Origin: a virus
Virus record (IMG/VR): IMGVR_UViG_3300020220_000321
Span: 1 to 24,365 of that record
DNA length: 24,365 nucleotides
Direction: 5' to 3' (one strand)
Below are positions 1 to 21,792 of the stretch, in pieces. The position numbers were made by a program, and so were the translations under genes. The notes under the pieces were generated by a model. It was not told the DNA's origin and ran no database searches. It was given only the letters and a program-made list of their open reading frames with translations. Every line of letters begins with the position of its first letter. The first letter of the stretch is position 1.

Positions 1-2
1 TG

Positions 3-47
3 AAGGCGTTGATTGACGATCTGCGGAGCTATGGCTTGCACGGATAA
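3..47 (+). CDS. 3' end of an unidentified gene (truncated by window edge)
   Basis: The reading frame that starts at base 3 is open from the window edge and ends at TAA (45-47), giving the last 14 residues KALIDDLRSYGLHG. The other two forward frames stop within the first 15 bases, so this is the only frame that can carry an upstream gene into the window. Nothing in these residues identifies the product. The following 63 nt hold only a ribosome binding site (aaggaaa) for the next gene. Confidence 0.5.
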   Translation, partial: KALIDDLRSYGLHG

Positions 48-110
48 CGACTGGCCACCAGTTGAGGGCAGCGCATTTCACCGCATGAAAGAGCCAAGGA
101 AACCCCACAC

Positions 111-287
111 ATGGAAATCCCAGCTAAAGCCCTGCAAAACGTTATGATCTTGGCCGCTCATGCCCTGAGCGGTAAGACCTACACCGCGGAGCCGGAACAG
201 ATGGCCGAGCTTTGGTCTGACGTTGCCGCGGTCAAAGCGCACCTGGCAGAAGCGCAGAAACCGGGCGAACCGGAGCAACCGGCGTGA
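111..287 (+). CDS. Small hypothetical phage protein, 58 aa
   Basis: The ORF begins with ATG after an aaggaaacc ribosome binding site and ends in TGA that overlaps the next GTG start by 4 nt (GTGA). The product (MEIPAKALQNVMILAAHALS...) is predominantly helical with a Pro/Glu-rich C-terminus (KPGEPEQPA). No cysteines or catalytic motif are visible and I do not recognise a family. The first half is moderately hydrophobic but lacks a clean membrane span. It sits at the head of a tightly coupled set of small lysis-type genes, so a role there is possible but only inferred from position. The coupling and codon use support it being real. Confidence 0.6.
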   Translation: MEIPAKALQNVMILAAHALSGKTYTAEPEQMAELWSDVAAVKAHLAEAQKPGEPEQPA

Positions 288-496
288 ATCGACCGAACGG
301 ATTCGACGCAAGCCCGCAAGCGCCTGTCCGCACGACGTGGGCAACGCTTGGGGCTTTCATCGGGTTTGCCTTCGGCGCAGGCGTATGGGCAACGTGGATG
401 AGTCTCAAAGTTGAATCGCTGGAAAACATCGTGACCGAAATGCGAGCCGATCTGCGGGACATTCGGCAACATTACAACGTCAGCAAATACCCATAA
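284..496 (+). CDS. Small single-span membrane protein with C-terminal helix, 70 aa
   Basis: GTG start overlaps the preceding stop by 4 nt. Residues about 17-40 (TTWATLGAFIGFAFGAGVWA) form one hydrophobic span, followed by a charged amphipathic helix (VESLENIVTEMRADLRDIRQ) that could form a coiled coil. One N-terminal membrane span plus a coiled-coil tail is the layout of inner-membrane spanins (Rz), and a small lipoprotein that could be an Rz1 partner lies 300 nt downstream. The protein is short for an i-spanin and the helix is brief, so spanin is only a hypothesis; a small accessory membrane protein beside the holin is the safer description. Confidence 0.65.
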   Translation: MNRPNGFDASPQAPVRTTWATLGAFIGFAFGAGVWATWMSLKVESLENIVTEMRADLRDIRQHYNVSKYP

Positions 497-509
497 CCCT
501 GGAGGCTTT

Positions 510-707
510 GTGAAGTCTTGGCGCACTACCATTTTTGGCGCTGGCGGGCTGACGTCCGTCATCGTCCCCGCAATCAACGCCCTGCTTGATGGCGACCCGG
601 CTACCGTCCCAAATTGGGAAGCCGTCGTGCCCGCTATCTTCATGGCGGTTGCGCTTTTCTTCGCGCGTGACAACGCGGTTAGCAGCGAAAGCGTCGGGGC
701 CAAGTGA
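510..707 (+). CDS. Holin-like small membrane protein, 65 aa
   Basis: GTG start nine bases downstream of a strong GGAGG ribosome binding site (501-505). The N-terminus (MKSWRTTIFGAGGLTSVIVP) is a hydrophobic stretch after a basic residue pair, and residues about 38-53 (AVVPAIFMAVALFFAR) form a second span; a short DGDP(A)T loop lies between. This fits a widespread family of roughly 60-70-aa phage membrane proteins encoded in lysis cassettes and often annotated as holin-like. Two spans with both ends in the cytoplasm would resemble class II holins, which permeabilise the inner membrane at the time of lysis. The stop (TGA 705-707) overlaps the next GTG. Holin function is inferred from topology and context, not shown. 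Confidence 0.7.
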   Translation: MKSWRTTIFGAGGLTSVIVPAINALLDGDPATVPNWEAVVPAIFMAVALFFARDNAVSSESVGAK

Positions 708-985
708 CCGGCGCGCTTGAGGCTATCGCATATGCGATTGCTAAAGGCGTTTTCAAGGCATGGCTTGAGCACCAGGCCGACATATCGGCCGCAGACATGG
801 AATCCCCCGATGCAACTGCGCGCGCTCGCGCTGCTCGCCTTCGTGCTGCTGTGTTGCGGCTGCATGACGCGAGCGGCAATCCCCGACCACTCGGTGCCAC
901 ATCGAGTAGCAACGGAGACAGCGGTCGAGGTATGGGTGCAGCGACCGGATCAACGGTGGGTAAGGACCAAGGTCCGCTTGCTTGA
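704..985 (+). CDS. Small helical lysis-cassette protein, 93 aa
   Basis: GTG start overlaps the holin-like stop (GTGA). Residues 1-55 (MTGALEAIAYAIAKGVFKAW...) are Ala/Arg-rich and helical, in keeping with short phage proteins found next to holins. From about residue 36 onward the DNA is also read in another frame by the lipoprotein gene at 810, and there this frame loses the usual third-position G/C preference and becomes Gly/Ser-rich (SSSNGDSGRGMGAATGS). The N-terminal half is therefore credible; the C-terminal half may be constrained mainly by the overlapping gene. No function can be assigned. Confidence 0.55.
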   Translation: MTGALEAIAYAIAKGVFKAWLEHQADISAADMESPDATARARAARLRAAVLRLHDASGNPRPLGATSSSNGDSGRGMGAATGSTVGKDQGPLA

Positions 986-1025
986 AGGCTGGTGGATAGC
1001 CGCGCCGCAAGTGGTCGAGCCATGA
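810..1025 (+). CDS. Small lipoprotein, candidate outer-membrane spanin (Rz1-like), 71 aa
   Basis: The ORF starts at ATG inside the 704 gene, in a different frame, and runs past its end. It opens with a lipoprotein signal: MQLR, then hydrophobic ALALLAFVLLC and a lipobox-like LCCGC with the modified Cys at residue 18. The mature part is short (about 53 aa) and contains a repeated V-rich strand pattern (VEVWVQRPDQRWVRTK) and the end GWWIAAPQVVEP. Third-position G/C is much higher in this frame than in the overlapped 704 frame, so this one is clearly coding. A short lipoprotein embedded in another lysis gene is the classic Rz/Rz1 arrangement, but a convincing Rz partner is lacking. The stop overlaps the next ATG (ATGA at 1022). 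Confidence 0.7.
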   Translation: MQLRALALLAFVLLCCGCMTRAAIPDHSVPHRVATETAVEVWVQRPDQRWVRTKVRLLEGWWIAAPQVVEP

Positions 1026-1474
1026 GCCGCAATGTCCGCCTAACGGAACAGCAGGCGCGCGAATGGCTGGCGCTGTGGGCGCATCACGGGTTCAATATCG
1101 CTGCCATCGCGCGCTCGCGTGGCGAATCGCGCAAGACGTGGTTTGACCGCATATCCGGCGCGCGGCGCTTGGTTCCTGACTCTGGTGTGGTGGTTACTGA
1201 CGTTCCGGATTCGCTGCGCTTCGATCGCACTACGGTGCAGTATGACGCACGCGGCAACGTCATTCAGGAATGGCGCCGGCTCAACAAAAGCGCGGCAGAC
1301 ATCGAGGCGCTCGCCGCCTCCTTGGGTGAAGCGCTTGCGCGCAAATGCCCAAGCTGCCACGCCCAAGCAAGCAGTGTAACGACAAGCGCACGCTTGTTTT
1401 CCCCGTCTATGATCCGCACTTCGGCAAGTACGCCTGGGAAAAGGAAACCGGCGAAGACTACGACACGGGCATAG
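1022..1474 (+). CDS. N-terminal HTH fragment of the broken metallophosphoesterase
   Basis: Coding quality is good from the ATGA-coupled ATG (MSRNVRLTEQQ...) to about residue 108 (EALARK), then becomes poor up to the TGA. The useful part holds a helix-turn-helix-like segment (FNIAAIARSRGESRKTWFDR) and the linker GNVIQEWRRL typical of phage HTH-phosphoesterase fusions. A GTG at 992 would extend the frame, but it lies inside the lipoprotein gene and lacks the coupling signal. If translated as is, the last 42 residues would be out-of-frame noise. Confidence 0.6.
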   Translation: MSRNVRLTEQQAREWLALWAHHGFNIAAIARSRGESRKTWFDRISGARRLVPDSGVVVTDVPDSLRFDRTTVQYDARGNVIQEWRRLNKSAADIEALAASLGEALARKCPSCHAQASSVTTSARLFSPSMIRTSASTPGKRKPAKTTTRA

Positions 1475-1890
1475 CGCGGCGCGTGCTGGTGCGAACCGCG
1501 CAGATTGCCATGCAGCGAAGCGGTCCAGTGCGCGAGGTTGTCTTGATCGCTGGCGGCGATTGGTACCACGCCGACACCAGAACCCCGCAGACCGAACGCA
1601 GCGGGCATGTCCTAGACGTAGACAGCCGGTCGGAGCGCGTGCGGGATGTCACCATACAAGCCTTGCACGAAGCTATCGCGGTCTTTTCCAGCATGGCCGA
1701 TCGCGTGCATGTCGTGTGCATTCCCGGCAATCATGACCACGAGTCTATGCACTGGACGGCGCGCATCTTGGAAGCCGTGTATAAAGGCCAGCCGCATATC
1801 ACCGTTGACCGCTCCCCGCGATCGCGTCGCTACCTGCGCCGCGGCAAGATGCCTGCTAGGCATCGATCACGGGCTAATGAAGATCAATGA
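1345..1890 (+). CDS. Central catalytic fragment of the broken metallophosphoesterase
   Basis: The frame opens at ATG 1345 (MPKLPRPSKQ) with no convincing ribosome binding site, and carries the first metal-binding motifs of a calcineurin-like phosphoesterase: DPH at residues 23-25, GGD near 70, and GNHDHE near 129. The characteristic phage stretch YAWEKETGEDYDTGIA follows the first motif. After about residue 167 (RRYLRRGKM) the frame turns into Arg/Ser-rich out-of-frame sequence and stops, losing the C-terminal histidines, so this piece alone should not form a complete metal site. Confidence 0.6.
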   Translation: MPKLPRPSKQCNDKRTLVFPVYDPHFGKYAWEKETGEDYDTGIARRVLVRTAQIAMQRSGPVREVVLIAGGDWYHADTRTPQTERSGHVLDVDSRSERVRDVTIQALHEAIAVFSSMADRVHVVCIPGNHDHESMHWTARILEAVYKGQPHITVDRSPRSRRYLRRGKMPARHRSRANEDQ

Positions 1891-2164
1891 ATACCTCACT
1901 TTGATGCCCTGCGAGGCGCACGCCGATTGGTCGGCAACCACGGAACGCCTTTGGCTGCTTGGCCACATCCACTCACAGAAGGTCATTCAGAAACACGGCG
2001 TAACGGTTGAGCACCTGGAAAGCATCAGCGCAACCGATGCCTGGCATGCGGAATCCGGTTACGTCGGCAACCCGCGCAGGACGGTTACATTCCTAATAGA
2101 TGACAGCTACGGGCTAGTCTCGCGCAGCTACATCACGGTGCAGGAGGCCATGCAAGATGCCTAA
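1877..2164 (+). CDS. C-terminal fragment of the broken metallophosphoesterase
   Basis: The same frame as the HTH fragment is open again from before 1850 (CLLGIDHGLMK) and continues MKINEYLTLMPCEAHADW..., including the GHIH motif that supplies the last metal ligands. The first internal ATG is 1877 but has no ribosome binding site, so independent translation is doubtful. The end (ITVQEAMQDA) overlaps the start of the next gene by 8 nt and contains that gene's AGGAGG site. Confidence 0.5.
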   Translation: MKINEYLTLMPCEAHADWSATTERLWLLGHIHSQKVIQKHGVTVEHLESISATDAWHAESGYVGNPRRTVTFLIDDSYGLVSRSYITVQEAMQDA

Positions 2165-2414
2165 CCTCAAGCCCGTTTTGGTGTGCTGGATTGATGCCGT
2201 GAGCGCAAACCACATGGATTGGGAAGAAGCCGACGCCGAACCGCTGGCGGCGTGTACGGTGAAGTCCATTGGCTTTCTGCGCAGCCGAACGCCGGCCGGC
2301 ATTGAACTTGTCATGTCGCACGGCGGCGAGCAAATCTGCGGGCGCTGGTTTATCCCCGCGTGCTGCATCGTGTCCGTTGCCGACCTGACAACTGAGCCGC
2401 AGTTAGCGGGATAG
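2157..2414 (+). CDS. Hypothetical phage protein, 85 aa
   Basis: ATG follows an AGGAGG ribosome binding site at about 2142 and overlaps the preceding gene by 8 nt. The product is a compact alpha/beta protein (MPNLKPVLVCWIDAVSANHM...) with strands around VLVCWIDA, VKSIGFLRS and IELVMSHG and a C-terminal CGRWFIPACCIVSVADL. Its pattern, a W-D substrate-like start followed by TVKSIGFL and FIPACCI, matches a group of small uncharacterised phage proteins that sit next to structural genes. No catalytic residues are evident. A 40-nt spacer with AAAGGA separates it from the next gene. Confidence 0.65.
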   Translation: MPNLKPVLVCWIDAVSANHMDWEEADAEPLAACTVKSIGFLRSRTPAGIELVMSHGGEQICGRWFIPACCIVSVADLTTEPQLAG

Positions 2415-2454
2415 GCGCGCCGTCCATCATGGCATCAGCAAAGGACCACTAGCC

Positions 2455-2868
2455 ATGAGTTTGGACAACGACGCCGAAGCCGACACCCTAGACATGATCC
2501 TGCGCGGGGTTGACCCGTCGTGGCGTGCCGGTGCAACCGCCTACTTGGCGCTTGTGTCGCTGGCATCGCCGGACGAGGCCGACCCGCTCGCCACCGAGTT
2601 GACCTATACCGGCTATGCGCGCGTAGCCCTAACGAAGTCGAGCGCGTGGACGACTGGCGGTAGTTCCCGCACCAACACCGGCTTGATCCAATTTGGCAAG
2701 CGCACGGACGGCGGCGCCACGCAGTACGCCCGCGCCGCTGTCATCGTCGACACGGCGAGCGGCCCGGTAAACATGGCAGTGATCGCCACGATTGGCGACG
2801 AACTCCCCGTGTCGTTGAACATCCGCCCGCAATTCGACATCGGCACCGTGACCGTCACCGCGGAGTAA
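2455..2868 (+). CDS. Small virion protein, phage tail-fibre-like family, 137 aa
   Basis: ATG is preceded by AAAGGACC. The layout matches short phage proteins usually annotated as tail fibre protein: an N-terminal helix (SLDNDAEADTLDMILRG), then a YLALVSLA strand with an acidic acylated-looking turn (SPDEADPLATEL), TGYARVALT, a Ser/Thr-rich loop, IQFGKRTDGGATQ, and beta strands to the end (TVTVTAE). In relatives the corresponding strand reads like YVALFT followed by a GGYARQ-type segment. The protein is likely beta-rich and part of the virion; whether it lies at the head, neck or tail cannot be decided. Two bases separate it from the next gene. Confidence 0.65.
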   Translation: MSLDNDAEADTLDMILRGVDPSWRAGATAYLALVSLASPDEADPLATELTYTGYARVALTKSSAWTTGGSSRTNTGLIQFGKRTDGGATQYARAAVIVDTASGPVNMAVIATIGDELPVSLNIRPQFDIGTVTVTAE

Positions 2869-2870
2869 CG

Positions 2871-3728
2871 ATGATTGCGAACCGCTTTGACGCGCGCGAC
2901 GCCGTGCTAGAGGGGCGGACGTGGGTTGGGTTCGTCCGCCGTGCTGGTCCCGCAATGACGGCATCCCGGTGGGCGGACCTATCGTACAGCGCGGGCATTC
3001 CCGTGGCGAACTACTACGCGAGCGCTCCGCTTGTGGGCGCAACGTTGGCGGCACGCGATGGCATCGACATAGGCCCGGCGCCGGCTACCGGGCTAACGAA
3101 GTACATCAAGGGCGTGACGCTCATTCCGCCAACGGCAACGGGGCGCCTCACGTTCTGGCTGCATGACATCTGCCTCTACTACCCGTTTGTTGACGGCGAC
3201 GGCGGCTACCAAGACATGATCCAATCGGCCCCTGTCACCCGCTACAATGGCGGCGTTGGATGCCGGATCATGGTCGTTTCGCAAGGCGTTGGAACCAGCG
3301 CGGTTGGCGTGCGGGTCACGTACACCAACAGCGACGGCGTGGCGGGCCGCCAAGTAACGGCGACGCTGAGCCTGGACGCGGCAGCCGGGACGCTGTGCTC
3401 ATCTGCTCCGGTTGCTGTCGCCACGTCGCTCCCATGTGGCCCATACCTGCCGTGGTTCGGCGATGACAAAGGCGTGCGCTCCATCGAAAGCGTCGAGCCC
3501 CTTACGCCAGGCGGCGGCATTCAAGCGTTTGTAATATGCCATCCGCTCGGCGCACCCTTCGGCATGCATGAAGGAACCGCGGCGCCGCTTGAAATTGATT
3601 TCACGGCGGAACAAAGCATGGCACTGCCGGACATCAGCGCGGACTCGTACATCCATTTCATCGCTATGGGCACCACGACGGCGTCGCCGTCCCCGCTCAC
3701 TGGCTACGTAGAAACCGTTTGGGGGTAA
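2871..3728 (+). CDS. Virion-type protein, upstream copy of a tandem paralogous pair, 285 aa
   Basis: ATG starts 2 nt after the previous stop. The protein is beta-rich, without signal peptide or membrane span, and shares an ordered set of motifs with the next gene: GIPVANYYASAPLVGATL, DICLYYPFVD, RYNGGVGCRIMVVSQ, CGPYLPWFGDDKGVRSIESV, an AFVICHPLGAPFGM strand, and a short C-terminus ending ETVWG. I recognise this general type from siphophage structural clusters but know no defined function; a capsid decoration, tail or neck component are all possible. It contains several Cys (in GVGCR, TLCSS, PCGPY and VICHP), more than its neighbour. Assignment as structural rests on context and composition. 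Confidence 0.65.
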   Translation: MIANRFDARDAVLEGRTWVGFVRRAGPAMTASRWADLSYSAGIPVANYYASAPLVGATLAARDGIDIGPAPATGLTKYIKGVTLIPPTATGRLTFWLHDICLYYPFVDGDGGYQDMIQSAPVTRYNGGVGCRIMVVSQGVGTSAVGVRVTYTNSDGVAGRQVTATLSLDAAAGTLCSSAPVAVATSLPCGPYLPWFGDDKGVRSIESVEPLTPGGGIQAFVICHPLGAPFGMHEGTAAPLEIDFTAEQSMALPDISADSYIHFIAMGTTTASPSPLTGYVETVWG

Positions 3729-3731
3729 CTC

Positions 3732-4637
3732 ATGTCTTACACTTCGCTTGATGACATCGCGGCAGAACTCGCCGCCGGCAAACTATTCTCGACGCCCTGG
3801 TTCAAGCTGTCGGGTGCGGCGGCGCACGTCGCGGGCAACGCCTACGACCTGTCGCTAACTACCGGCGTCCCGGCGGCGAACACCTACACCGGCACGGCGC
3901 TTGCCGCGCAAGTCCCAACCGAAACGACCGGGTGGGGCATATATCACGGTGGCAACGTGTCGGCGGACGTGAAGCACATCCTCAACTCGTTAGCGGTCGC
4001 GGTCGGCACGAACTCCGCGCCCGGCGTGCTGATCCTGGTCGACATTGCGCTCTATTACCCTGGCGTTGACCTCCGGAGCACATCGCTGCAATCGCTGACC
4101 AACGGCACCACGTTGACGCGCCACACCAGCGGCGTGGGCTTGCGTCCCTTCATCGTGTGCACGACGCAAAGCGGCGGCACGCCGGCATCCACTCCGGTTG
4201 TGAGCGGGTTCAACTACCGCAACCAGAGCGATGTGGACGCGGCACTGTCCGGCGTTGGCACTATCAACTTCACCGCGGGCGCCGCGGGCATTCCGCCGGT
4301 TTCCAAGATCGTCCACTGTGCGCCGGCCGCCAACCATCACGGTCCGTTCCTGCCGCTCAACGCGGGCGACACCGGTATCAAGCGCGTCAACTCCTTTCAG
4401 CTTTCGACCGCCTACACCGGATCGACCACCACCACCGGGTGCATTGTGTTGGCCAAGGTGCTGACGATGATCCCGCTGATGGCGGTCGGCACGCCGTCCG
4501 AGCGTTCGTTTTTTGCCCCGACCCCGATCCTGCCGCCGATCCCGGACGGCGCGTGCTTGTCGTGGCTGTATTTTGCGGGTGCAGCGACCGCGGCAAACTC
4601 CGTGTTCATGGGCAACCTAGACTTCGGCTGGGGCTGA
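3732..4637 (+). CDS. Virion-type protein, downstream copy of a tandem paralogous pair, 301 aa
   Basis: ATG three bases after the previous stop, with GGGGGTAA upstream serving as ribosome binding site. It begins with a helix (YTSLDDIAAELAAGKLFSTP), then AAAHVAGNAYDLSLTTGVPA, GWGIYHGGNVSADVKHIL, DIALYYPGVDL, TRHTSGVGLRPFIVCT, HGPFLPLNAGDTGIKRVNS, VLAKVLTMIPLM, and ends PDGACLSWLYFAGAATAANS...LDFGWG. These align in order with the upstream gene, although identity by eye is modest, so the duplication is old. Beta-rich, no membrane span. The copy with the helical N-terminus and full motif set looks like the standard family member; the upstream gene is the more divergent. Function unknown, virion role inferred. 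Confidence 0.65.
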   Translation: MSYTSLDDIAAELAAGKLFSTPWFKLSGAAAHVAGNAYDLSLTTGVPAANTYTGTALAAQVPTETTGWGIYHGGNVSADVKHILNSLAVAVGTNSAPGVLILVDIALYYPGVDLRSTSLQSLTNGTTLTRHTSGVGLRPFIVCTTQSGGTPASTPVVSGFNYRNQSDVDAALSGVGTINFTAGAAGIPPVSKIVHCAPAANHHGPFLPLNAGDTGIKRVNSFQLSTAYTGSTTTTGCIVLAKVLTMIPLMAVGTPSERSFFAPTPILPPIPDGACLSWLYFAGAATAANSVFMGNLDFGWG

Positions 4638-7352: not shown

Positions 7353-7985
7353 GTGGGCGCGCTTGAATCCTTTGAAGCGCTGAAGGAAAAGCAGGAAGCG
7401 GAGGCGGCGAAGCTATCGGCGCAGGCCTCGCTTGCCGCTAGTCGCCCGCTGTCTACGTCGACGATTGCCGCGGCAACCAAGGCAACGCGCGACGTAGCGG
7501 AAGACCGCGGGCGCGGCGGACTTGCTGAGCCTGCCGCGGACTTGCAGGATCTTCGCAAGGATGCCGCCTTCACTGGCGGTCTGATGAAGGACGTTCGCCT
7601 AGCGGAATCGCAGGCACACATGCTCCTAGCTGGAGCGCTGATGGTCGGATACCGCACGCAGGTAGAAGGCACGAAGCTAGCCAAGGGCGTTCGCCTAGTC
7701 TACACGCCCGACCCTGCGACCACGGCAGCCGTGCAATCGTACCCGATCCTTGGCGAGACGGCAGCAGAGCACGCGCACGCGCTAGCCGATGCCCTGCGGC
7801 GTGATACGCTGCGCGCGGTAGGCTTGCCGCTCACAGGACAAGCGTCTTACGAGCTAATCGCCGAAGCGCTGGGCGCTGTCGCAACGCAGCACTCGACGCG
7901 CGTAGGCTCTGCGGTTGCGGAAGCCTACTTTGCAGGCGTGCAAGCGGGATTCATTGACGCAGGAAGGGCGCTGGTGCATAAGTGA
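7353..7985 (+). CDS. Possible N-terminal half of a divided minor head protein, 210 aa
   Basis: GTG start 2 nt after the previous stop, with GGGG upstream. The first 70 residues are an Ala/Glu-rich coiled-coil type helix (ESFEALKEKQEAEAAKLSAQ). The rest is helical and ends VATQHSTRVGSAVAEAYFAGVQAGFIDAGRALVHK, which resembles the segment just before the HG/CRC domain in Mu gpF/SPP1 gp7 proteins (Arg followed by a helix reading like ENAAAYNAGRYEA). The next gene, coupled by a GTGA overlap, supplies exactly that missing domain. No independent function is recognisable. It may be half of a two-chain minor head protein or an unrelated scaffold-like gene. Confidence 0.55.
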   Translation: MGALESFEALKEKQEAEAAKLSAQASLAASRPLSTSTIAAATKATRDVAEDRGRGGLAEPAADLQDLRKDAAFTGGLMKDVRLAESQAHMLLAGALMVGYRTQVEGTKLAKGVRLVYTPDPATTAAVQSYPILGETAAEHAHALADALRRDTLRAVGLPLTGQASYELIAEALGAVATQHSTRVGSAVAEAYFAGVQAGFIDAGRALVHK

Positions 7986-8506
7986 CGATCAAGCTAGACT
8001 TTAGCCTCGACCTTTCCGACTTGCGCCTGGATCAGCTAGCCGCAGCGGAGGCCGGCGGGCCGCTCGATTCTGACAGCGTCTATTTCCAGTACGTGTGCAC
8101 GACCACAGACGGCGGGCATGATCCCGAAGGCACGCCCGATGATAAGGTGCGCGACAGCCACCGCGCCTTGCACGGCACCGTGTGGCGGATCGATGACCCG
8201 CTAGCGCCTATCCCGCCGATCGGCTACGGCTGCCGCTGCGCAATGCGCTACGTAGCTAAGCCGGAATCGCCGGCCGAAAAGATTCTGGAAGCGGTCGCGC
8301 CGTCTGAGCCTACCACGGTAGGCAACGCATACTCGAAGTGGCTCGACGGCAACTTGCCGTCGTGGAACAAGTACGCGGCCTTAGCTAAGGACGCCAAGCC
8401 GGCCGACCGCCTGGCGGTTGTCTATGACGCATTGAAAGACGCGGGCGCGGGTGACGCACGGGAACTAGCGCGCATGATTATCAGCGCAGGGGGTTTGCGT
8501 GGTTGA
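7982..8506 (+). CDS. Minor head protein, Mu gpF / SPP1 gp7-like domain, 174 aa
   Basis: GTG start overlaps the previous stop by 4 nt. The signature of the phage Mu F-like family is intact: DSHRALHG at residues 58-65, then VWRIDDP and GYGCRC with Cys84 and Cys86, a probable metal-binding site. In relatives this domain is the C-terminal part of a 250-450-aa minor head or head morphogenesis protein that sits inside or at the neck of the capsid and can travel with the DNA. Here it begins only about 35 residues before the signature, so the usual N-terminal half is absent or provided by the previous gene. The C-terminus (NAYSKWLDGNLPSWNKYAAL) is helical. Confidence 0.75.
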   Translation: MTIKLDFSLDLSDLRLDQLAAAEAGGPLDSDSVYFQYVCTTTDGGHDPEGTPDDKVRDSHRALHGTVWRIDDPLAPIPPIGYGCRCAMRYVAKPESPAEKILEAVAPSEPTTVGNAYSKWLDGNLPSWNKYAALAKDAKPADRLAVVYDALKDAGAGDARELARMIISAGGLRG

Positions 8507-9397: not shown

Positions 9398-9808
9398 ATG
9401 CCTGCCGCAAAAGCATATCGGGCTAAGACCGTGACCTACAAAGGCACGGCTATTACCGGCATCAATGACGTATCCATCAACGAAAGCGGCAGTAGCGTGG
9501 ACCTGACCACGGACGCGTCGGCCTATGTCCAGGCGGTTTTCGTCGATCAGATCGCCGTTGACGTGACCGTCAATACAACCGACATTGACCGCTGTGCGTC
9601 CATCGTTGTGGGCGACATCGGCGCGCTCGTGGTGACGTTCCAGCTTCGCGCGGAGGGCTCCGGCGCTGGTGTTGGCGATGAAGTCGCCACCATGTCCACC
9701 GCGGTGTGTACCGGCAAGACCCCGCAGGCTGGCACGAACGGCATTGGCTCGGTTGCTCTGACCTTCCGTTGCTCTGGCCCGTCTGCCCATCCGACCACTT
9801 GGAGCTAA
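9398..9808 (+). CDS. Tail tube (major tail) protein, 136 aa
   Basis: ATG after a GGAGGG site. A compact all-beta protein: KTVTYKGTAITGINDVSINE, then SSVDLTTDASAYVQAVFVDQ, IAVDVTVNTTDIDR, LVVTFQLRAEGSGAG and the end SVALTFRCSGPS. This strand order, with the alternating V/T strand followed by a sharp acidic turn and a final short strand, is that of small tail tube proteins of the siphophage type, which polymerise into hexameric rings around the tape measure. Length is at the short end of the family. Position supports it: the tail assembly chaperone and tape measure genes follow directly. No C-terminal Ig-like decoration domain is present. Confidence 0.75.
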   Translation: MPAAKAYRAKTVTYKGTAITGINDVSINESGSSVDLTTDASAYVQAVFVDQIAVDVTVNTTDIDRCASIVVGDIGALVVTFQLRAEGSGAGVGDEVATMSTAVCTGKTPQAGTNGIGSVALTFRCSGPSAHPTTWS

Positions 9809-9812
9809 GACC

Positions 9813-9995
9813 ATGAACCGCGACGCCTTCGCGGTTGCCTGGCGAATGACGGAAAGCGTTCGCTGGTACGATTGGGTGGGGCGCACCTCGCTGGGCGAAG
9901 TGGTGCGCTGTCAGTCTCTCACTATGATGAAAGAACCTTACACGCGCAACGTGCTGTGTGTAAATGTCCAACCCCACAAAAAGGAAACCCCCTAA
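9813..9995 (+). CDS. Small hypothetical protein in tail module, 60 aa
   Basis: ATG with a weak GAGCTAAGACC leader, 4 nt after the tail tube stop, and TAATG overlap with the chaperone gene. The product (MNRDAFAVAWRMTESVRWYD...) is short, with Trp/Tyr residues and a basic C-terminus (NVQPHKKETP). No family is recognised. Its coupling to both neighbours and sustained coding character make it credible, and its place between tail tube and chaperone suggests tail assembly, but the sequence shows no motif. Confidence 0.6.
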   Translation: MNRDAFAVAWRMTESVRWYDWVGRTSLGEVVRCQSLTMMKEPYTRNVLCVNVQPHKKETP

Positions 9996-10627
9996 TGCCT
10001 TGCTACTTCGCACCCGATGTCACGTGCACCGGATCGGTGCGCGTGCTTCCGGCGTTCGCGCGCCTACGCGGCGGCGACAAATGGAAGACGCGCGACTCAA
10101 CGCAGAACGGCAAGCGCGGCACAATCGCATGGATGGGCGACAGCGAAGACTGCCCGCAGCCAGGCACAACCGGGTGGGAAGAATGCGCGGACGGCTTGCT
10201 CTACTTGCGCGGCGTCAAGATGCCGGAGCAAGGCGCGCTTGTGCGCCCGCATCGTGTCGATGGCATCGACTACACGACCGCGGCCGGCGCGACCATTACC
10301 ATTCCCAGCGCATTCGCTGCGCCGCGTAAGCTCCTGTTTTCAACGGCGAAGGTAGGCGACCCCGCAAGCGATTGGGCGCAACGCGCGTTTGCGTTGTTTG
10401 ACCAACTCGCGTCTAAGGAACACGTAAGCGCGTTTAGCACTGAGGTTCTGAGCCTCATCGCTGACGCGATCGGCCACGTTTACTACGTGACGCCAGAGAT
10501 TCTCGACGAACTCGGCTGGATCACTTCGGCCGACATTGACCCGATCTTGGTTTGCATGATGGGCCTTGACCCAAAAAAAGCACACCAGCCCGCAGGCGCT
10601 ACCTCGCCCTCGCCTGTGGGGGTCTAG
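9995..10627 (+). CDS. Tail assembly chaperone, zero-frame product (lambda gpG analogue), 210 aa
   Basis: ATG overlaps the preceding TAA (TAATG) and is the preferred start; upstream extension in the same frame has no initiation signal. A beta-rich N-terminal half (PCYFAPDVTCTGSVRVLPAF, WMGDSEDCPQPGTTGWEE) includes several Cys, followed by helices (SDWAQRAFALFDQLASKEHV, FSTEVLSLIADAIGHVYYVT). Identification comes mainly from position between tail tube and tape measure genes and from the -1 frameshift signal near its 3' end, the arrangement of lambda G/GT. Unshifted translation adds AHQPAGATSPSPVGV after the slippery site and stops at TAG 10625-10627. The sequence itself does not resemble lambda gpG. 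Confidence 0.7.
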   Translation: MPCYFAPDVTCTGSVRVLPAFARLRGGDKWKTRDSTQNGKRGTIAWMGDSEDCPQPGTTGWEECADGLLYLRGVKMPEQGALVRPHRVDGIDYTTAAGATITIPSAFAAPRKLLFSTAKVGDPASDWAQRAFALFDQLASKEHVSAFSTEVLSLIADAIGHVYYVTPEILDELGWITSADIDPILVCMMGLDPKKAHQPAGATSPSPVGV

Positions 10628-10716
10628 CGGATGTGGAACTTGCGCCGGCAGAGGCGCAAGCCATAGCCGACTGGCTAGTCAGAACCGGGCGCGCGCCGGC
10701 CTTCAAGGCCAGATAG
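9995..10716 (+). CDS. Tail assembly chaperone, -1 frameshift fusion (lambda gpGT analogue), 240 aa
   Basis: A -1 slip on the A-run at 10573-10579 joins residues 1-195 of the zero-frame protein to 45 residues read from 10579: STPARRRYLALACGGLADVE followed by LAPAEAQAIADWLVRTGRAP and AFKAR, ending at TAG 10714-10716. This extension looks like real protein, with a helix and strong third-position G/C, yet its frame has a TGA (10567-10569) three bases before the slippery run and no good start of its own. It fills the interval up to the tape measure GTG at 10723. In lambda-type phages the shifted form binds the tape measure protein and recruits tail tube subunits. Inference from layout; the shift has not been shown experimentally. 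Confidence 0.75.
10570..10620 (+). promoter_or_regulatory. -1 programmed ribosomal frameshift signal: slippery run plus stem-loop
   Basis: In the chaperone frame the bases read GAC CCA AAA AAA GCA. They contain two overlapping slippery heptamers of the X XXY YYZ form, C CCA AAA (10570-10576) and A AAA AAA (10573-10579). After a 9-nt spacer, CCCGCAGGCG (10589-10598) can pair with CGCCTGTGGG (10611-10620) over 10 bp with one G-U pair, closing a 12-nt loop. The zero-frame stop follows 4 nt later. A 7-A run is conspicuous in this G+C-rich region. Confidence 0.85.
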
Positions 10717-10722
10717 GTTCCT

Positions 10723-11823
10723 GTGTCCGATATTCCGATAACCTTCTCAACGAACGCAGCGACCACAGCCGCGCAGGTTGACAAAGCGGCGGCATCGACC
10801 GCGAAGGCATCGGCGGCGCAGAAGGCGCACACGACCGTCACCAATGCGGAATCCGAAGCACTTCGGCGCGCAGCGGCGGCGGCACGCGAGAAGGCAGCCG
10901 CGGACAAGCAGGCAGAGCTAGCGGCGACCAAGGCTGCGGCGGCAGATCGCGCACGCGCGGGCAAGGCTGCCGCATTCCTTGGCGTCGGCCGCGGCTTCGG
11001 CGGCGCCTCTGCTGTGCTCGGCGCGGGCGCCGGCATTGGCTCAATGGTTGCCGCTACGGCGGCGATGACCGCGCTAGGCGCCGGCATTGGCCTGCTCATC
11101 GGCGTCATCGGTAAATGGATCGAAAGCGCCACGGAAGGCGACAAGATCGTAGCCGACCTAACGAAGAAGTTAGACGACCTCAAGACGCGAGACGCGGACT
11201 TAGGCATCCAGGCGGCGGAAAAATTCGGGCCAAGCATTACCGCGCTTAACTCGCTGGGCGGCGATTCGCGCGACCTGGCCGACGAATTTTCTAAGCGCTT
11301 CGGCTTTGCCGATGCGTCGAAGGCCGTGCTTGAGGCGCGCCGGCTTTTCCCCGACAACATGGAGGCGGCGCTACGGGAAGCCAATGACGCATCACGCATC
11401 ACCGGAGCACCGCTGAGCGAATCGCTTTCGGCACTCAAGGGTATGCCGGTGTCTATGCTGGGCGAAGGCCGCGCCGCGGCTGGCGTTGTTGGGCAATTCT
11501 TCGGGCACCATATCCCGTTCGATCAAGTCACGGCGATGCGCGACCGCTCGGACGAAGATCCAGAAACGCTAGACATTCGGCGCTTGCAGGCGGTAGGCGG
11601 GCGGCTCGATCAATTCGGCATTTCCAACATTGAAGGCGGCGTGCAAAAGGCTATTGCCGATTACATCAAGCTCACCAGCGAGCGCGGCGACGCAGAGAAA
11701 GAACTAACCGACGAAATTCGCAAGCAGACCGAAGCCACGGAAAAGCTGCGCGCGCAGATGGAAGGCTACAACAGGTTGATGAACGCCTACTATGGCGGCG
11801 GACCATTCGGAGGCTCGCCCTAA
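10723..11823 (+). CDS. Tape measure protein, short, 366 aa
   Basis: GTG start 6 nt after the frameshift-product stop. Residues about 12-82 are an Ala-rich charged helix (AAAAAREKAAADKQAELAAT) fit for coiled coil; residues about 84-130 are a Gly/Ala hydrophobic region (FLGVGRGFGGASAVLGAGAG, GAGIGLLIGVIG) that could insert into a membrane during DNA entry. The remainder is helical up to a Gly/Pro-rich end (YYGGGPFGGSP). This layout and the gene's place directly after the frameshifting chaperone identify it as the tape measure. At roughly 0.15 nm per residue it would set a tail near 55 nm, short for a siphovirus. No lytic or peptidase domain is evident. Confidence 0.75.
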   Translation: MSDIPITFSTNAATTAAQVDKAAASTAKASAAQKAHTTVTNAESEALRRAAAAAREKAAADKQAELAATKAAAADRARAGKAAAFLGVGRGFGGASAVLGAGAGIGSMVAATAAMTALGAGIGLLIGVIGKWIESATEGDKIVADLTKKLDDLKTRDADLGIQAAEKFGPSITALNSLGGDSRDLADEFSKRFGFADASKAVLEARRLFPDNMEAALREANDASRITGAPLSESLSALKGMPVSMLGEGRAAAGVVGQFFGHHIPFDQVTAMRDRSDEDPETLDIRRLQAVGGRLDQFGISNIEGGVQKAIADYIKLTSERGDAEKELTDEIRKQTEATEKLRAQMEGYNRLMNAYYGGGPFGGSP

Positions 11824-12218: not shown

Positions 12219-15196
12219 CCTACGCGCTGTCACAGTTTCGCGTGTGGGTGCAGCCCGCTTACGTTGCTGGCTCCGCGTTCTACTACCCGTGGAACCTGTC
12301 GGCCTTCGTGCATGAGCCGCGCATGATTCCAGAGCGCGTCAGCACGCGCGCCGGTGGCATGGGTTCTGCTTCGTTCCGCTACCTGCGCGCGTGGCGCGAG
12401 GAAGGCGCGGGCACGTTCTACGATGGCGGCTGGGGCAATGTCGGTTGCTACGTCGCTGTGACTGCCGGCGTCACCGCCTTTGACCGTGCGGCGGTTATCT
12501 TTTGGGGATTCATTTCCCAGCGGGCGATTGTCGAAATATCCGGCGGCAATGACAAGGCCGGAACGATTACCGCGCAGGGGCTTGGGTATCTGCTTGACGG
12601 AACGCAGATCGGCGGATTCCGCGCCGGCCCAAGCGGCGGCGTGTCGGGCGCTATCTCAAGCCCGCCGACGTTCAACCTGCAAGGCGACGGCGGTTCGATC
12701 GTTGGCAACAAAGTAACGGACTCGAACGGCGTTGCTGTGTTCGCTAACCTGCTGTCGGAGTGCTCAAGCGCGGCGCTTTTCTCGCGCAATGATTGCCTGG
12801 TGCATGTGCTGCGCTACTGCCGCCCCAATGGCATGCCGACACTGACCGCAACCGGAAGCGCTGCGGTCCAGGCTTACCTTGCCGACACGACGTCAAAGGA
12901 AGTCTTTGACCTGTCCAACGTGACCATGCGCGGCGCGATTGACATGCTCGTCAGTCGCGTGCATGGCTTCGGCTGGAACGTCGTACCCAATGCGTCGAAC
13001 GGCTGGGATATTGTTGTTTACCCGCTGCTTGATGACGGTTCGGCCTATGGCACCGGATACCCAACGGCAACGCCCGTCAACGTCGACCTAACATCCGCAG
13101 CGGTTGAATCGTTCACCTACACCGAAAGCGCGGACGATCTTTGGGATGCCGTAACGGTGCAGGGTGACAACATTCTGGCTGGCGTAACGCTGAGTTATGC
13201 AGACGGAAACTTGGTCAAAGGTTGGTCTTCGTCGCAGGAGACAGCATACCGCGCGGCGGCGGTTGGTGACGCCACCTACCCGTCACTGACGCCGGACGAA
13301 AAGATCGCGCGCAACGAACAGTTGCGCAATGCCGCGCACTTGGCCGATGTGTTCCAGCTTCACACGATCAACGCGGCAACCGCCGCTCCGCTTCGCTCCG
13401 CGAACCCTGGCACCGGCAGCGCAACGCTTGCGCTTGTGCCTGAGATTTCATGGAACGGCACGACGGCAAGCGTGGGCGCCGCGAACCGCTCGCCGTATCT
13501 GCCGGCGGCTCGATTCTCGCGCAACGTTCCGTGGTTGTCTGGTGTCTCTGGTGATGGCACGGACTCGCGCACGACCGAAGCGAAGGCGCGCCCCGCGTAC
13601 CTGACCCCGCTCGTTTTCAAGTATGACACCGGCGTCAGTGGCGGCGAGAATGTTTGCATGGACTTGCTAACGCCGATTTACAAGCGCGCATCGGCAAGCG
13701 TTGCGCCGGATGAGCGCACGCCTGGCTTGCGCGTGATGTTCAATCCGCCGGAGACGTGCGCGCGTGGCTCGTGGTCGGATGCATCCGATGGGCAAGGGCG
13801 AATCGAGAAGGTGGAAACTGACTCGCTCAAGCGCACTTTCAATTACACCAAGATGGCGGTAACGGTTGGAATCCCAAGCGATCAGCGCGTGAGTGTGACC
13901 AAATACCGCTACGGCGTGCCGGTTGGCTCTGAGCGGCGCGTGATGGTTATCACAGACGATTCGCTACAATTCTGGTTCACGGTTGCCGGAACGATCGTCG
14001 GCGCAAAGGCCGATGGGTCCGCCGATCGCGTGACCGTTTCAACGTTTGTCCGCAATGACTTTCCGACTGCCGAACGCTTGGCCACGATGTACGCGGCCTT
14101 TATGTTCCGGCGTCGTACGTCAATCAATGTAACGCTGGCTCAACCGGATTACCTGCCGGCGTGGGCTGCAATCGGAACGATGATTGGCCAGGTGACGGAA
14201 GCGAGCGCAACCGGTCCCTACCCCGCTATCGTGGTCGACTCCTATACCACCGTCGAGTCGGTCGACTATTCACTTGGCGAGCAACCGCGCGTCACGGTGC
14301 AGACAACGCTACCGGCTACGCCCGCCATGAGCGGCGGCGGATCGTCGCCCGCATCCGGCGGCTCGGTATCGCAAACGCTTGGCGGCACCGTTGCGCAAGC
14401 GCTCAACAGCACGCAAGCGCGCGTTGAGAAGGTCGCGCAGCAAACGGCGAAGGCGCCCACGACGGTGGGGCGGTCGGCAGATTCCGCCGCATCTGGCGAT
14501 AGTCTCCGCATGACCATTACGCAGGCCAATAGCTTCACCGCCGGGCAAGTAGTCTACAACAACGCCGGGACATGGGCGCTAGCCCGCGCCGACGCGGAGA
14601 ACACCGCGCGCTATAGCGGCGTCGTGGAAAGCGCGACTAGCTCTAGCTTCGTTGTTGTGTTGGCTGGCCGCATCACGCTAGCGGCTGCCGTTGGCTTTAC
14701 CTATTACCTAAGCGACGCGGTAGCCGGCGCGCTCGTGGGCGCGGGGGCACTTACTACCGGCTCAATGACAATCCCGGTTGTGCGTTCGATTTCCGCAAGT
14801 GAATGCCTAGTGCTGCCGGCGCGCGATGATGGCAGCGACTTGCTTTCGCTGGTTGCCGGCACGCCGGGCGCGGGCGGCGGCGACTTGTCGGTCAACCTTA
14901 CGTCGGTGAAGGACCTTACGGTAGACTCAACCGACGGCGTCAAATTTACCTTCGGATCGGGGCAGTATTTCCAAGTCACGGCTGCCGGCGCGCTAGATTT
15001 CTATCACTCGGCAACGGCGCGCGTGCAGATCGATTCGGCTGGCAAGGTGACGATCACGTACCCCAGCAGCAACACCGTCACCATTGACCCGTCGCACTTC
15101 GTCGGAACATCGCGCGATGTACGTTTGCGCGAGATTGACGTTTGCGACGCGGGCGTGGCAAAAAAGATGCTGATGCTGGCGTCTGCGGCGTATTGA
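12215..15196 (+). CDS. Tail hub / tip protein, 993 aa
   Basis: The largest gene here; GTG start coupled by GTGA. The N-terminal ~330 residues are beta-rich with typical hub features (SQFRVWVQPAYVAGSAFYYP, KAGTITAQGLGYLLDGTQIG); residues about 300-690 continue with domains resembling the central tail hub of siphophages. A Gly/Ser/Ala-rich linker (about 702-755, GGGSSPASGGSVSQTLGGTV) leads to a compact beta module (about 775-870; VVYNNAGTWALARADAENTA, SSSFVVVLAGRITLAAAVGF) and a C-terminal part that ends VRLREIDVCDAGVAKKMLML then ASAAY, an ending shared by many phage tail-tip proteins. Likely binds receptors or supports fibres. No peptidase or muramidase motif is seen. Confidence 0.7.
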   Translation: MTYALSQFRVWVQPAYVAGSAFYYPWNLSAFVHEPRMIPERVSTRAGGMGSASFRYLRAWREEGAGTFYDGGWGNVGCYVAVTAGVTAFDRAAVIFWGFISQRAIVEISGGNDKAGTITAQGLGYLLDGTQIGGFRAGPSGGVSGAISSPPTFNLQGDGGSIVGNKVTDSNGVAVFANLLSECSSAALFSRNDCLVHVLRYCRPNGMPTLTATGSAAVQAYLADTTSKEVFDLSNVTMRGAIDMLVSRVHGFGWNVVPNASNGWDIVVYPLLDDGSAYGTGYPTATPVNVDLTSAAVESFTYTESADDLWDAVTVQGDNILAGVTLSYADGNLVKGWSSSQETAYRAAAVGDATYPSLTPDEKIARNEQLRNAAHLADVFQLHTINAATAAPLRSANPGTGSATLALVPEISWNGTTASVGAANRSPYLPAARFSRNVPWLSGVSGDGTDSRTTEAKARPAYLTPLVFKYDTGVSGGENVCMDLLTPIYKRASASVAPDERTPGLRVMFNPPETCARGSWSDASDGQGRIEKVETDSLKRTFNYTKMAVTVGIPSDQRVSVTKYRYGVPVGSERRVMVITDDSLQFWFTVAGTIVGAKADGSADRVTVSTFVRNDFPTAERLATMYAAFMFRRRTSINVTLAQPDYLPAWAAIGTMIGQVTEASATGPYPAIVVDSYTTVESVDYSLGEQPRVTVQTTLPATPAMSGGGSSPASGGSVSQTLGGTVAQALNSTQARVEKVAQQTAKAPTTVGRSADSAASGDSLRMTITQANSFTAGQVVYNNAGTWALARADAENTARYSGVVESATSSSFVVVLAGRITLAAAVGFTYYLSDAVAGALVGAGALTTGSMTIPVVRSISASECLVLPARDDGSDLLSLVAGTPGAGGGDLSVNLTSVKDLTVDSTDGVKFTFGSGQYFQVTAAGALDFYHSATARVQIDSAGKVTITYPSSNTVTIDPSHFVGTSRDVRLREIDVCDAGVAKKMLMLASAAY

Positions 15197-21325: not shown

Positions 21326-21463
21326 ATGGCATGGCCGCGATGCTGCAAGCGCTCGATGGGATGGCTGCCAGACGTGCAGAAATTCCATTGCCCAATTTGC
21401 AAGCGTTCGCGGTTTGTGCTTCGCGGATCAGTGAAACCAAAGCCGAAGGAGAAAGGCAAATGA
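21326..21463 (+). CDS. Very small zinc-ribbon protein, 45 aa
   Basis: ATG begins one base after the preceding stop and the TGA overlaps the next ATG (ATGA at 21460). The frame reads MAWPRCCKRSMGWLPDVQKF followed by HCPICKRSRFVLRG and a basic end KPKPKEKGK. C6/C7 and C22-x2-C25, with H21 and a CKRS motif repeated after each pair, suggest a compact treble-clef or zinc-ribbon fold. Such Com-like or Ogr-like miniature zinc proteins often act as regulators. The coupling at both ends and the ribosome binding site for the next gene in its tail support it as a real gene. Confidence 0.6.
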   Translation: MAWPRCCKRSMGWLPDVQKFHCPICKRSRFVLRGSVKPKPKEKGK

Positions 21464-21792
21464 ACATCCTCGACCACCTCACCAAGCTGCACGCGGAGGC
21501 AGTGCCGGTGCCGTGGGCATCTGTGCAAGACGAAATCAGAGACGGCGCCGATCATCGCATGGCAATCATCAATGGTCCGACAGCCCAATGGGCCGAAGAT
21601 ATTGCCACGGCCGCGCTCATCGTCGCCATGCGTAACGCCCTTCCGCAACTCCTGGCGGTGGCGAAGGCGGCGCAGGCTGTCGGCGTCCATTTCAAGGACG
21701 CTGAACGCTTTGAGGCAATCGGCGAGGACCGTCTTGAACGAATCGAAGTTCTACAGCGATCGCTCGCCGCGCTGGGGGGGGTGAAGCTGTGA
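21460..21792 (+). CDS. Hypothetical helical phage protein, 110 aa
   Basis: ATG 21460 follows GAAGGAGAAAGG and overlaps the previous stop. The longer frame from 21331 merely shadows the zinc-ribbon gene. The product (MNILDHLTKLHAEAVPVPWA...) has an N-terminal segment with a WASVQDEIRDGADHRMAIIN strand-turn, a helix (WAEDIATAALIVAMRNALPQ) and a helical end (HFKDAERFEAIGEDRLERIE, VLQRSLAALGG). The start resembles a class of phage early-region proteins of unknown function. A run of eight G near the end (21774-21781) could be prone to length variation; here the frame stays open to VKL. Confidence 0.6.
   Translation: MNILDHLTKLHAEAVPVPWASVQDEIRDGADHRMAIINGPTAQWAEDIATAALIVAMRNALPQLLAVAKAAQAVGVHFKDAERFEAIGEDRLERIEVLQRSLAALGGVKL

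Follow-up and report, generated by a model that had tools for sequence, protein, structure and literature searches.

The -1 ribosomal frameshift of the lambda G/GT genes is established and widely conserved (PMC5009743, citing Xu et al. 2004). The lambda G/GT and HK97-type pairs were compared with the window, by which we mean the whole 24,365-nt stretch of DNA that was analysed. They share with it a gene located before the tape measure gene, which in the window is a probable one, a -1 shift near the 3' end of that gene, an extension that ends before the tape measure start, and two products; in the window the shift and both products are predicted. No sequence homology was detected between the window chaperone and lambda G/GT or the HK97-type pairs. 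In contrast to the GGGAAAG of lambda, the window has an A7-based tandem heptamer. It also has a much shorter extension than lambda G/GT and a clear downstream stem. The original prediction from this DNA had noted that two slippery heptamers combined with a strong stem are not the lambda GGGAAAG form. The sequence does differ, but the implied novelty was not upheld, since A-run heptamers are common in tail-chaperone shifts (PMC3483164, PMC3556154, PMC6003738).

AAAAAAG sites were described in Burkholderia phage AH2 (PMC3483164) and for VT1-Sakai, psiM2, PVL and others (cited within PMC3483164). AAAAAAC was found in Caulobacter phiCbK and GGGAAAC in Colossus (PMC3556154), and AAAAAAG, possibly AAAAAAC, in Paenibacillus larvae phages (PMC6003738). 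In AH2, phiCbK and the P. larvae phages, the A-run heptamer occupies the corresponding place in this gene pair. However, these sites are A6G or A6C, whereas in the window the seventh base is A as well and the heptamer is overlapped by C CCA AAA. A_AAA_AAA is one of the heptamers conserved in clusters of frame transitions; reporter shifting reached 10% with a 7-A cassette of this sequence and 6-7% with two cassettes from tail chaperones (PMC3711429). A_AAA_AAA was less shift-prone than A_AAA_AAG in E. coli (PMC5009743). In the literature searched, we found no report of CCCAAAA in a tail chaperone gene; it is an ordinary XXXYYYZ site. Given the lambda G/GT, A6G/A6C and A_AAA_AAA precedents, the site, as a probable shift site, belongs to a known kind. 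It adds a further clean example to a known device, A-run slippage having already been published for tail chaperones, and current knowledge of the mechanism itself is unchanged by it.

A further likeness was seen with E. coli dnaX, where, as in the window, a stem-loop follows an A-run slip site. E. coli dnaX also has an upstream Shine-Dalgarno stimulator, which sets it apart from the window. It differs further in its A AAA AAG site, its efficiency of ~50% and its shortened product (PMC5009743).

Probable slip site and downstream stem

The slip site, the stem, the stop codons, the -1 extension and the ORFs at 9398-9808, 9995-10627 and 10723-11823 lie on the plus strand. The zero-frame ORF at 9995-10627 encodes 210 aa from an ATG with AAGGAA upstream and is a probable G-like tail assembly chaperone gene. 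From ATG 9995, the zero frame was read as GAC CCA AAA AAA GCA at 10568-10582, with positions recomputed from the sequence. An in-phase X XXY YYZ site, as in shifts of the lambda G/GT type, was found at 10570-10579. It consisted of C CCA AAA (10570-10576) and the overlapping A AAA AAA (10573-10579), both in slip phase, and this reproduced the in-frame C CCA AAA AAA with two overlapping heptamers described earlier. A AAA AAA is the probable main slip site; AAAAAAG at 10574-10580 is out of slip phase. The slip-phase A7 sits 45 nt upstream of the zero-frame stop, TAG 10625-10627. TGA 10567-10569 shuts the -1 frame directly 5' of the slip site. A -1 slip at either heptamer gives the identical junction ...GLDPKK/STPARRR..., and the tandem heptamers would therefore alter efficiency and not the product. 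The peptide ACGGLADVELAP, which had been proposed as the junction peptide, is instead a peptide of the extension.

AAAAAAA occurs once in the window, at the slip site, and 1.7 occurrences were expected on both strands. This meant that A7 is not rare per se and that its place and phase carry the weight. Coding stretches of 18 codons elsewhere seldom held an in-frame X XXY YYZ (Y = A or T), with a frequency of 0.6%. Other runs were also noticed in the window. A_AAA_AAG lies at 15160, near the end of a 993-aa ORF, where the -1 frame stops after ~21 codons within the next gene. A run of eight G was seen at 21774-21781, at the 3' end of ORF 21331-21792.

A 10-bp stem, the candidate stimulator, was identified downstream. 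Its arms are CCCGCAGGCG (10589-10598) and CGCCTGTGGG (10611-10620), which form 10 pairs, one of them G-U, with -17.6 kcal/mol and a 12-nt loop; the hairpin spans 10589-10620. The spacer between slip site and stem is 9 nt (10580-10588), and the zero-frame TAG lies 4 nt 3' of the stem. Spacer, stem and stop were thus as in the original prediction. A helix of at least 10 bp located 5-9 nt 3' of the codon was found for 18 of 4807 codons (0.37%). The z-score of the hairpin was -3.6 as an isolated 32-mer and -1.6 in a 50-nt context. Because the region is GC-rich, the stem is just mildly to moderately unusual in its context. Of eight folding windows, six gave the stem a pairing probability of 0.94-0.96 and two gave 0.28-0.29. 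An alternative structure starting from 10590 can displace the stem, depending on the length of the downstream RNA that is folded. With the stem or with the alternative fold, structure exists 9-10 nt 3' of the slip site. A pseudoknot with the stem loop was also considered, and the sole match was an unconvincing 5 bp located 66 nt 3' of the stem.

The probable -1 extension and the tail module

The -1 frame extension covers 10579-10716 and consists of 45 codons and TAG 10714-10716. It probably forms the T-like domain of the fusion, and its 45 residues are STPARRRYLALACGGLADVELAPAEAQAIADWLVRTGRAPAFKAR. Past the zero-frame stop lie 29 of its codons. It ends 6 nt before GTG 10723 of the next gene, the probable tape measure gene, which shares its frame. 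The sole start candidate in the -1 frame is GTG 10633, which is poor and would encode 27 codons. These results agreed with the earlier claims that the -1 frame is blocked by the TGA, has no good start, and would code for 45 residues ending 6 nt before the next start.

Codon usage was compared without stops; a stop-inclusive version gave 22 nats, largely owing to stop codons in the other frame. Over 10627-10713, the -1 frame scored 3.6 and 6.7 nats above the two remaining sense frames. This score was low for a real coding sequence of such length, and the antisense model was just 0.6 nats behind. The tape measure gene came similarly close to a tie with the antisense model over its first 29 codons, so the near-tie in the extension was not damaging. 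The score of the 29 codons past the stop was intermediate between null and coding stretches. The full 45-codon extension was at the off-frame level (47% of null stretches were equally good) and scored below almost all real coding stretches. The 15-codon overlap with the zero frame showed no -1 preference, which was not surprising because two frames overlap there. Codon usage past the stop modestly favored the -1 frame and weakly supported a protein-coding extension. A perfect 8-bp inverted repeat, CTTGCGCC-GGCAGA-GGCGCAAG (10638-10659), lies within the -1 extension and has no T run after it.

The ORF at 9995-10627 directly precedes the probable tape measure gene (10723-11823, 366 aa, GTG start), which was named by its position and a match to phrog_1506 (E 0.0052). 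This adjacency fits the lambda G/GT type, with a tape measure match that is weak. Upstream, a 136-aa ORF (9398-9808) is a candidate major tail protein by position (synteny) only and gave no family or tblastn match. The gene at 8499 matched a neck/tail-completion family (phrog_26, E 2e-6), and 7982-8506 gave matches to head-morphogenesis families. The gene order is head morphogenesis, tail completion, candidate tail tube, ORF 9995-10627, tape measure and tail-tip-like genes. This is the standard long-tail order, and ORF 9995-10627 occupies the chaperone slot. With E values of up to 10 admitted, PHROGs and Pfam gave this ORF just one match, to a PHROG of unknown function (E 0.15). The profile miss bars its filing in a family but not the mechanism, because such ORFs share low sequence similarity (PMC5009743). 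Single-sequence AlphaFold models had a mean pLDDT of 36 for the chaperone and 33 for the candidate tail protein, too poor to compare. We infer the chaperone identity from its position and the shift signal, and the tape-measure identity mainly from position. The frameshift reading of the original prediction thus held on anatomy and position, but the two gene identities did not stand as certain, with no profile match for the chaperone and E 0.005 to phrog_1506 for the tape measure.

A lambda G/GT-type -1 ribosomal frameshift in the tail chaperone gene was the best explanation of the anatomy and position, with a probability of about 0.78. The sequence elements and their spacing were read directly from the DNA, and from them we infer the occurrence of the shift, its rate and the roles of both products. 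Ribosomes would mostly stop at TAG 10625, giving a protein of 210 aa. On A AAA AAA or C CCA AAA, with the stem 9 nt downstream assisting, a small share of them, probably between a few and ~10%, would move back by one base. These would translate 45 more codons (STPARRR...KAR), and the resulting fusion of ~240 aa would end shortly 5' of the tape measure gene. If the two products work as in lambda, the tape measure protein would be coated by the short form, and the tail tube protein would be recruited by the extension. If the fusion is made, YLALACGGLADVELAPAEAQAIADWLVR and the junction ...GLDPKKSTPAR would be peptides of the shifted product. It is doubtful, though conceivable, that the 45-residue extension suffices as a tube-recruiting T domain and that the tandem site tunes, perhaps raises, the ratio of long to short form relative to lambda.

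The finding speaks for a long-tailed phage, siphovirus- or myovirus-like, as the source of this unclassified fragment. The site also indicates which genes are likely to encode the chaperone and the tape measure in a tail module that profile libraries barely recognize. Such a frameshift signal is usable as an annotation landmark where sequence homology fails.

Relatives and the same layout in other phages

Homologues of the chaperone ORF were searched for by tblastn in INPHARED, by a scan of IMG/VR and in GTDB genomes, and none was found. The tail genes tested likewise gave no homologue in INPHARED, IMG/VR or GTDB genomes. The IMG/VR and GTDB scans were based on exact short-peptide matching, which detects close relatives only, so distant relatives may exist. 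The window is an IMG/VR record. Its left 3.6 kb (1-3597) is 99.94% identical to another IMG/VR contig, IMGVR_UViG_3300020198_000174 (L016/L017), which in turn matches a third contig (L018) at 99.07% identity to L017. IMGVR_UViG_3300020198_000174 extends the window leftward with terminase-, portal-, scaffold- and P22-type coat-like genes that are absent from the window; these were named from sequence features and the coat protein match. Distantly related P22-type coat proteins, at 33-42% identity, are present in five phages: HK639, Klebsiella phage 5, Acinetobacter phage qsb1, Rhizobium phage P106B and Synechococcus phage Ssp-JY42. Relatives of the head region were collected with the structural paralogues, and with the coat protein that the overlapping contig encodes, as baits, and none had a recognizable copy of the tail module. 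These adjacent paralogues, at 2871-3725 and 3732-4634, are 27% identical and probably structural. The protein at 3732-4634 has relatives in LR756502 (a 642-kb uncultured phage), Pseudanabaena phage PA-SR01 and MW202692, and copies 73-75% identical in two contigs (L006 and L007).

The gene before the annotated tape measure was scanned for heptamers and a -1 extension in the coat-related phages and in Idiomarinaceae phage 1N2-2, which was reached via its helicase. The standard layout was found in HK639 (AAAAAAC), Klebsiella phage 5 (AAAAAAG), 1N2-2 (AAAAAAG) and qsb1 (GGGAAAG). The first three resemble the window in having an A6C or A6G site before the tape measure and a -1 extension. HK639 and Klebsiella phage 5 also share the P22-type coat protein distantly with the contig that overlaps the window, at 33-37% identity. 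The four comparison phages have 59-111 extension codons past the stop, compared to 29 in the window. Plausible sites were seen in P106B (TTTTTTT) and CGphi29 (AAATTTT), and Ssp-JY42 and Me-ZS1 were less clear because their -1 frames are already open a long way 5' of the site. Caulobacter phage DMCA gave a single hit, in the wrong place; there, no gene separates the tail tube gene from the annotated tape measure. This meant that the layout is not universal. No relatedness between the chaperones of these phages and that of the window was detectable.

Alternative explanations of the site

Chance was the main residual rival, because coding potential and conservation were both indecisive. The A-run and the stem would merely coincide, no useful amounts of fusion would be made, and 10628-10722 would be a mere spacer. 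The coding signal of the extension is weak, slippery-type heptamers (A or T type) were present in 2 of 19 other gene tails, and one A7 per window is expected. However, the site lies directly before the tape measure in the right phase, with a stem found at 0.4% of codons, and the -1 frame is closed just upstream and ends 6 nt before the next gene. We regarded chance as improbable. The GTG at 10633, 5 nt past the zero-frame stop, might also allow reinitiation after TAG 10625, so that a separate small -1-frame gene would be translated with no shift. Such a gene would have a poor ribosome-binding site and a product of just 27 aa, and it would account for neither the stem nor the slip site, which made this reading extremely improbable.

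The ribosomal frameshift was also weighed against two readings in which the run gains one A. RNA polymerase might add an A in A7, and the A8 transcripts would be translated into the same fusion. A-runs serve as sites for transcriptional and ribosomal slippage alike. It has been argued that transcriptional realignment may operate in some dnaX genes whose runs fall short of 10 As, and poly-A cassettes shifted more as the runs lengthened (PMC3711429). However, efficient transcriptional slippage was documented at runs of at least 9 As (PMC5009743, PMC4256274), and n > 7 is cited in PMC3711429. The run in the window is 7 As, short of the ~8-9 or more of programmed transcriptional realignment, and both the spacing of the stem, which is correct, and the XXXYYYZ phase of the tandem heptamers are marks of ribosomal shifting. 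Transcriptional slippage was thus considered quite improbable. The true run might instead be A8 in the DNA, the result of a sequence error, since a single added A would join both frames exactly into one uninterrupted ORF. A nearby gene matching phrog_704 (1023-2164) seems to shift frame twice, a point for this reading. However, its frame changes recur in the second IMG/VR contig (99.94% over 3.6 kb), and if the reads differ they are not private assembly errors. The other long ORFs are intact, A7 is short for short-read miscalls, and the position and stem fit the programmed reading. A sequence error was therefore judged very improbable.

The phrog_704 family is annotated as DNA-repair exonuclease / metallophosphoesterase. 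The frame changes in the gene lie near 1345 and 1850, with profile positions 127-289 in one frame and 289-387 in the next, and the same sequence is present at 8093-9231 of L016. The apparent double frame change may reflect a decayed gene, split genes or a shared error.
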